From Rhodoferax ferrireducens T118 (GTDB lineage Bacteria; Pseudomonadota; Gammaproteobacteria; Burkholderiales; Burkholderiaceae_C), in assembly GCF_000013605.1 (NCBI RefSeq), contig NC_007908.1, positions 4,216,001-4,280,000 on the forward strand: a stretch of DNA of 64,000 nucleotides, read 5' to 3'. The position numbers were made by a program, and so were the translations under genes. Under the pieces are notes generated by a model, which worked only from the letters and a program-made list of their open reading frames with translations, did not search any database and was not told the origin of the DNA. This document shows positions 29,002-29,135 of this stretch, piece after piece; within the stretch, counting starts at the first letter, position 1; the number at the start of each line of letters is the position of its first letter.

Positions 29002-29100
29002 AAAAAAAACCCCAGCTCGAGGGCTGGGGTGGTAAGCCTATTTGCTGTCACACATCAAGGCCCCGCTCAGGGAGGAAAAGCGGGAGGCGGCGAACCGCCC
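29002..29100 (-). ncRNA. Predicted ~99-nt small RNA with CCUCC loop
   Basis: A sigma-70-like promoter and a strong terminator face each other on the minus strand with no reading frame between. The predicted RNA begins with a GGCGG-UUCG-CCGCC hairpin, then a stem CCCGCU/AGCGGG (29062-29084) whose 11-base loop UUUCCUCCCUG contains an anti-Shine-Dalgarno CCUCC, a ~30-base linker, and a terminator stem ACCCCAGC/GCUGGGGU with eight Us (29002-29009). The only annotated gene further along this strand is hemJ, 85 bp downstream. I do not recognise a named family. Confidence 0.7.
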
Positions 29101-29106
29101 ACGCGT

Positions 29107-29135
29107 AATTTAACAAAAATCCGCCCCCGTTTCAA
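29107..29135 (-). promoter_or_regulatory. Sigma-70-type promoter of the predicted sRNA
   Basis: TTGAAA (29130-29135, five of six to consensus), 17-bp spacer, TAAATT (29107-29112, four of six). Predicted start near 29100, exactly at the base of the first hairpin. Confidence 0.6.

Follow-up and report, generated by a model that had tools for sequence, protein, structure and literature searches.

An anti-hemB family RNA between hemJ and hemB of Rhodoferax ferrireducens and its predicted promoters across the Burkholderiales

Between hemJ and hemB in the genome of Rhodoferax ferrireducens T118, a promoter-like and a terminator-like sequence on the minus strand enclose about 99 bases. Is this an RNA gene, and does its place beside two heme genes indicate what it does? 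A sequence-only reading had proposed a stand-alone small RNA (sRNA) that exposes an anti-Shine-Dalgarno loop, and had suggested heme or iron control. We analysed the locus in a window of 64,000 nucleotides (contig NC_007908.1, positions 4,216,001 to 4,280,000), and all coordinates given here are those of the window (Table 1).

Table 1. Features of the hemJ–hemB region and a nearby ProQ-domain gene in the window
Feature	Position	Strand	Basis and remarks
hemJ (UPF0093)	28489..28917	-	PF03653, 133.8 bits; downstream of the terminator
Intrinsic terminator, 8-pair stem and U run	29002..29030	-	Terminator scan and fold; both sides changed in 4 of 8 pairs
anti-hemB sRNA, ~99 nt	29002..29100	-	RF02837 match at 29002-29087, fold z score, block conserved across the 32 rows; 5' end as predicted by the promoter
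Third hairpin, GCCU...AGGC, enclosing the conserved GUGUGACAGC	29036..29061	-	Fold and alignment
Core hairpin bearing the anti-Shine-Dalgarno loop	29062..29084	-	Fold; invariant in 30 distinct near relatives
Loop UUCCUCCCU	29069..29077	-	Sequence and fold; CCUCC at 29075-29071
5' hairpin, UUCG loop	29085..29100	-	Fold and covariation; only its last three bases fall within the Rfam match
Predicted -10 hexamer TAAATT, TG upstream	29107..29112	-	Motif reading; exact TAAATT in 23 of 32 rows (best-scoring promoter per row, no shuffle control)
Predicted -35 hexamer TTGAAA	29130..29135	-	Motif reading; 29 of 32 rows combine a TTG-type -35 with a TG-extended -10 (counted in the same way)
hemB (ALAD)	29200..30216	+	PF00490, 467 bits; divergent; start at 29200 chosen, frame open back to 29029
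ProQ domain	35570-35875	+	About 6.5 kb away

Family membership and distribution

We compared the region with the covariance models of Rfam 15. The RNA matched RF02837 (anti-hemB, “Burkholderia RNA 7”) with 55.5 bits against a gathering score of 49.5 (E = 3.2e-10), over the full length of the model (positions 1-81 of 81). No other match in the 64-kb window passed a gathering score, and the genome contains one RF02837 match at E 0.001. The features that go with membership are present: the core hairpin with its UCCUCCCU loop, the terminator and the position beside hemB, where both flanking genes were confirmed by Pfam. Judged by the covariance match, the Rhodoferax RNA is a member of the already named anti-hemB family, which is widespread in the Burkholderiales, and is not a new RNA.

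Two other families were rejected. With E values of up to 1 allowed, 28900-29250 gave only RF02837 and RF02278 (Betaproteobacteria toxic sRNA) and no match to RybB; RF02278 reached 22 bits where its gathering score is 50. An antisense RNA to hemB was rejected as well, on the basis that the RNA at 29002-29100 does not overlap the hemB coding sequence if the ATG at 29200 is the start; this test depends on the start chosen, as the frame is open to 29029, and a long hemB 5' UTR is also possible.

We assessed how widely the family occurs. Of 40 relatives, 35 carry RF02837 above its gathering score (38 at E 0.001), as do 134 of 200 genomes drawn across the order (155 at E 0.001). Among same-genus genomes 22 out of 23 have a match, and the single miss is a genome that is 53% complete. 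In a control search, 3 of 14 well-known genomes matched at E 0.001 and none matched over the cut-off, so matches below the cut-off deserve little trust. The loop motif lies upstream of hemB in 55 of 80 hemB loci, these being the best 80 of 591 relatives, and one further locus of the 80 (L097) was recognized by Rfam, giving 56. Ten of these 56 hemB-adjacent loci from the best 80 of 591 relatives were submitted to Rfam and all ten passed. In the remaining 24 of the best 80 of 591, nothing in the DNA scanned with Rfam passed the gathering score. The covariance match together with the conservation in relatives places the RNA far beyond chance.

Some same-genus genomes have extra anti-hemB-like sites. 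A CCTCCCTGA loop and a T run were seen in 8 out of 10 stretches fetched (L113 on G012:C9, L114, L115, L116, L117, L118, L120 and L121). More than one RF02837 match occurs in 13 of the 23 same-genus genomes, many of them under the cut-off, and one genome (G012) has three within about 12 kb of one contig.

Members of the family have been described in Burkholderia. The RNA ncS04 of B. cenocepacia, for which anti-hemB is given as the alternative name, is 105 nt long with its 3' end determined by RACE in addition to dRNA-seq, and was detected on a Northern blot (PMC5688073). The same paper reports that ncS04 binds Hfq, citing Ramos et al. 2013. The equation of ncS04 with RF02837 rests on the printed name anti-hemB, as the table in that paper (PMC5688073) carries no Rfam number for ncS04. 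Anti-hemB is also listed among the sRNAs predicted in B. pseudomallei (PMC3521395). A review describes Bc7, an Hfq-copurified sRNA of B. cenocepacia, for which the Ramos study computed hemB as a target and for which RybB of Salmonella was predicted as a homologue (PMC6321483). Bc7 very probably belongs to the anti-hemB family, because RF02837 bears the name “Burkholderia RNA 7” and the two share a source; this identification from naming is our own. In the portions of the literature on anti-hemB, ncS04 and RF02837 that we covered, we found no demonstrated function, and a later review mentions neither hemB nor ncS04 (PMC10987360).

Structure, conservation and covariation

We folded the 99 nt from 29100 to 29002. 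Four hairpins were obtained at -43.9 kcal/mol (z = -3.32), and 1 of 200 shuffles was equally low. As the sequence-only reading had described, the predicted start falls at a GC hairpin capped by UUCG and the next hairpin exposes the CCUCC loop. The near-consensus minus-strand promoter that it had pointed out (TTGAAA, a 17-bp spacer and TAAATT) is also in place, as is the strong terminator, whose stem proper runs from 29030 to 29009 with 8 pairs and is followed by a run of eight T. Taken by themselves, the scans for these signals were weak, with 2 promoter-like sites in comparison to 1.0 in shuffles and 8 terminator-like sites in comparison to 5.7.

Mechanical open reading frames (ORFs) overlap the RNA on both strands: on the minus strand one of 89 aa, which begins with GTG at 29051 and continues past the terminator into hemJ, and on the plus strand one of 51 aa together with an upstream extension of the hemB frame, which stays open as far as a GTG at 29029. 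We did not count any of the three (89 aa minus, 51 aa plus, hemB frame extension) as the gene of this RNA.

Conservation was evaluated in a near-relative set of 32 rows, which comprises 20 same-genus rows (the window among them), 11 other loci, and L115, a locus from the genome G007, where three matches occur. Conservation in these rows extends over the two promoter elements and over the RNA, from its 5' hairpin through the U run, whereas the promoter spacer and the DNA flanking both sides are variable. The promoters counted in Table 1 have a spacing of 16 or 17.

The pairing was assessed in an alignment of 31 of the 32 rows, 30 of them distinct. Standard pairs make up 99.0% and 10 out of 28 pairs changed on both sides. 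We counted 43 cells changed on both sides, in comparison to 11.4 in shuffles, and 0 of 500 shuffles were as high. The signal was lost when pairing partners were slid by 1 to 3 columns, a control that is biased in favour of the structure because this was taken from the window's own fold. The number of further pair types was close to that of the shuffles (18 against 15.6; 26 of 500 shuffles reached 18).

In the 5' hairpin, 6 out of 6 pairs have changes on both sides and 98.3% of the cells are paired. This hairpin lies outside the Rfam match bar three bases, so it is, on this alignment, an addition that extends the described anti-hemB model, at least in the Rhodoferax lineage. The core hairpin, being invariant among the near relatives, is uninformative on pairing there. 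It does vary among the 56 rows of the wide set, where 3 of its 7 pairs have changes on both sides, with 95.4% of cells paired. For the whole structure the wide set gave 22 cells changed on both sides against 9.1 in shuffles, and 0 of 500 shuffles reached these cells and the score; the counts of pairs changed on both sides (4; reached by 181 of 500) and of pair types (10; reached by 125 of 500) were at shuffle level. The second helix falls in a gapped region of the wide set with 43.5% paired cells, and we draw nothing from it.

The loop is nearly invariant. Many comparison rows were picked by a regular expression for the loop, so that its invariance is readable only from loci chosen by Rfam. 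Among the first 30 such loci (L001-L030), CCUCCCUGA is present in 28, and L005 and L020 differ. CCTCCCTGA is present in 26 out of 26 assessed loci of a fresh Rfam-selected set (28 fetched, L175 and L187 unassessed).

In the third hairpin (minus strand, 29044-29053), GUGUGACAGC is almost invariant in near relatives and is partly kept in the Roseateles and Rhizobacter rows. Its conservation suggests a possible second pairing site.

Proposed action of the RNA and the heme question

The loop contains CCUCC, which is part of the 16S anti-Shine-Dalgarno sequence, so the RNA can pair with Shine-Dalgarno regions. Our reading is as follows. A housekeeping (sigma70-type) promoter, as predicted from its motifs, would start an RNA of about 99 nt near 29100, which would end at its own terminator at 29002; such a discrete RNA is predicted here from the sequence and has been demonstrated for ncS04, the homologue in B. 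cenocepacia. The Rhodoferax RNA very probably binds Hfq, as reported for ncS04. The single-stranded UUCCUCCCU loop would then pair with the Shine-Dalgarno regions of several mRNAs encoded elsewhere and lower their translation, an action suggested by the loop sequence and by related C-rich sRNAs. By sequence and analogy, we consider it probable, with a good share of doubt left, that Rhodoferax anti-hemB is as a whole an Hfq-binding sRNA that acts in trans and covers Shine-Dalgarno sites with its C-rich loop. Of its parts, the proposal of a stand-alone sRNA with an exposed anti-Shine-Dalgarno loop held up well, given the Rfam match, the compensatory changes, the conserved promoter, and the homologue, whose ends are mapped and which is reported to bind Hfq. 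The RNA is very probably a real repressor of translation, and repression by blocking Shine-Dalgarno sites is likely.

Other sRNAs resemble it in this respect. C-rich loop motifs are carried by the alphaproteobacterial CcsR group of Rhodobacter and by NfeR1, although these come from another class of bacteria and are likened by description. The toxic sRNAs of RF02278 (double-hairpin RNAs, bdhR1, ncS27), which the Rhodoferax RNA does not match over the gathering score as noted above, are likewise short hairpin RNAs with a terminator, and their CU-rich unpaired stretches are read as complements of ribosome-binding sites. In B. cenocepacia, sRNAs with such stretches are predicted to pair over ribosome-binding sites (PMC5688073). 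S17 of Bordetella pertussis has similar single-stranded C/U-rich sites complementary to ribosome-binding sites, is connected with Hfq, and is described as directly repressing one target in its authors' reporter test; in contrast to anti-hemB, it is mostly processed from a longer RNA and lies between other genes, and here too the likeness is by description. S17 and the toxic sRNAs are related to anti-hemB by mechanism only. The closest known system remains the anti-hemB family (RF02837, with ncS04 and probably Bc7): the Rhodoferax RNA matches its covariance model and shares the loop, the terminator and the place next to hemB, and it differs in adding a covarying 5' hairpin and a lineage-typical TTGAAA/TG-TAAATT promoter.

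We searched for targets with the pattern CAGGGAGG-N{2,12}-ATG in two same-genus genomes, a search limited to one 8-mer and ATG starts. There were 24 matches in R. ferrireducens T118 (two at one site) and 23 in G010, compared with 2 and 0 for the reversed pattern. This excess shows only that the pattern resembles Shine-Dalgarno sites. The ATG opens a frame of 50 codons or more at 12 and 8 loci, respectively, and no encoded protein was common to both genomes.

Specific action on hemB or on heme and iron genes, as the sequence-only reading had suggested, is the first alternative, and we regard it as unlikely. Its appeal lies in the location between hemJ and hemB and in the nearness of the RNA to hemB in the 56 of 80 loci (best 80 of 591 relatives) recognized by loop motif or Rfam, and a review gives hemB as a predicted target of the probable homologue Bc7 (PMC6321483). 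That published prediction is, however, a computation. The RNA is divergent from hemB and without coding overlap if the start is at 29200, and no Shine-Dalgarno-like sequence lies ahead of this likely start (plus strand, 29180-29202). In Table 2 of the B. cenocepacia study, none of seven conditions changed ncS04 significantly (biofilm, stationary phase, starvation, glucose medium, osmotic stress, low pH and low iron), and the low-iron-responsive sRNA of that study is ncS63 (PMC5688073). The neighbourhood also varies on the hemJ side: ten neighbour frames from relatives compared with Pfam gave four hemJ, three GTPase genes facing the RNA, and three without a match. In two Hydrogenophaga loci (L046, L049) the RNA adjoins hemJ and is about 1.5 kb from hemB. 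On balance we keep heme or iron control as a suggestion of low probability. The nearby ProQ-family gene, also raised as a clue, is real, but Hfq is encoded elsewhere on the chromosome and is the protein that the homologue is reported to bind.

Marginally less probable still is that the RNA serves as a decoy or sponge, titrating another sRNA or an RNA-binding protein, or that it works on the ribosome by way of its anti-Shine-Dalgarno-like loop, and not on particular mRNAs. A loop that is nearly invariant across the order, yet yields no shared target in two genomes, would fit such a role; the target search was small, however (two genomes, one 8-mer, ATG starts only), and the reported Hfq binding of the homologue fits mRNA pairing. 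The least probable of the three is a cis-acting hemJ leader that starts at 29100, with the terminator as an attenuator and read-through to hemJ giving heme or iron control in cis: hemJ does follow directly 3' of the terminator on the same strand here and in Rhodoferax L031, Variovorax L042 and the two Hydrogenophaga loci, but an opposite-strand GTPase gene takes that side in B. ambifaria L070, Cupriavidus L054 and Gallionella L095, so that a leader is not the common function, the minimum free energy (MFE) and centroid structures are identical with no antiterminator evident, and the homologue is described as a discrete 105-nt RNA with no significant response to low iron.

Promoter classes across the order

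Upstream of the RNA, many distant members have a putative promoter element of another kind. It was first noticed as GGAACTT...TCTGA in several of them; its strict form, GGAACTT...TCTNA, resembles the sigmaE consensus. Among 91 upstream regions, 11 have the strict element compared with 0.13 expected (L002, L003, L006, L007, L008, L012, L089, L095, L097, L105 and L107). We then applied the same strict pattern to the fresh loci (L175-L202), with its place fixed at 25-42 nt before the loop, and found it in 17 of the 26 assessed, spread over 12 family labels, compared with 0.01 expected. With the loose form included, 22 of 26 have an element (0.18 expected); 5 of these have the loose form only, and 4 loci have neither. 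Two of the 28 fresh loci (L175, L187) were dropped as the script found no loop at the expected place, and L193 and L194 are identical in the region. The fresh loci were taken from the order-wide draw by highest Rfam score, so they are not an even sample, and some genera had been seen earlier. One of the loose-only fresh loci (L185) resembles the Burkholderia type.

In the Comamonadaceae-type set the strict form is absent (0 of 32) and the loose form occurs in 4 of 32, rows for which there is no shuffle control. Loci of the Burkholderia, Paraburkholderia, Cupriavidus and Roseateles types also are without the strict form. The sigmaE-like element marks many lineages, not most, since several groups outside the Comamonadaceae lack it.

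RybB is a sigmaE-dependent sRNA of enterobacteria. The Rhodoferax member differs from it in matching no RybB family model and in having a sigma70-type promoter; the sigmaE-like promoters of many distant anti-hemB members, on the other hand, are a likeness. The RybB resemblance reported for Bc7 (PMC6321483) points the same way. Text searches of the literature, at the level of listings, returned no report linking RpoE to anti-hemB. From these sequences we tentatively propose, at a confidence a little short of evenly balanced, that in many distant lineages anti-hemB serves envelope stress as a sigmaE-type sRNA, a RybB-like counterpart, and that in the Rhodoferax family the GGAACTT-N16/17-TCTNA element was replaced in place by a sigma70 promoter above a nearly unchanged RNA body, which would have turned a conditional RNA into a constitutive one. 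We infer the class of the element, its use and the sigmaE type as the older state. With such an element before many distant members, envelope stress is at least as good a lead as heme. Many genomes of the order share a strongly conserved anti-hemB, and what most merits follow-up is the apparent exchange of promoter class; if true, such an exchange, with the RNA itself kept constant, would clearly exemplify how the regulation of an sRNA is rewired.

We also searched whole genomes for GGAACTT-N15-18-TCTGA. The pattern is absent from the same-genus genome G006 (reversed control 4) and occurs twice in G037, once before anti-hemB (reversed control 1). In the 5.4 Mb of G039 it occurs once, exactly before anti-hemB (reversed control 0).
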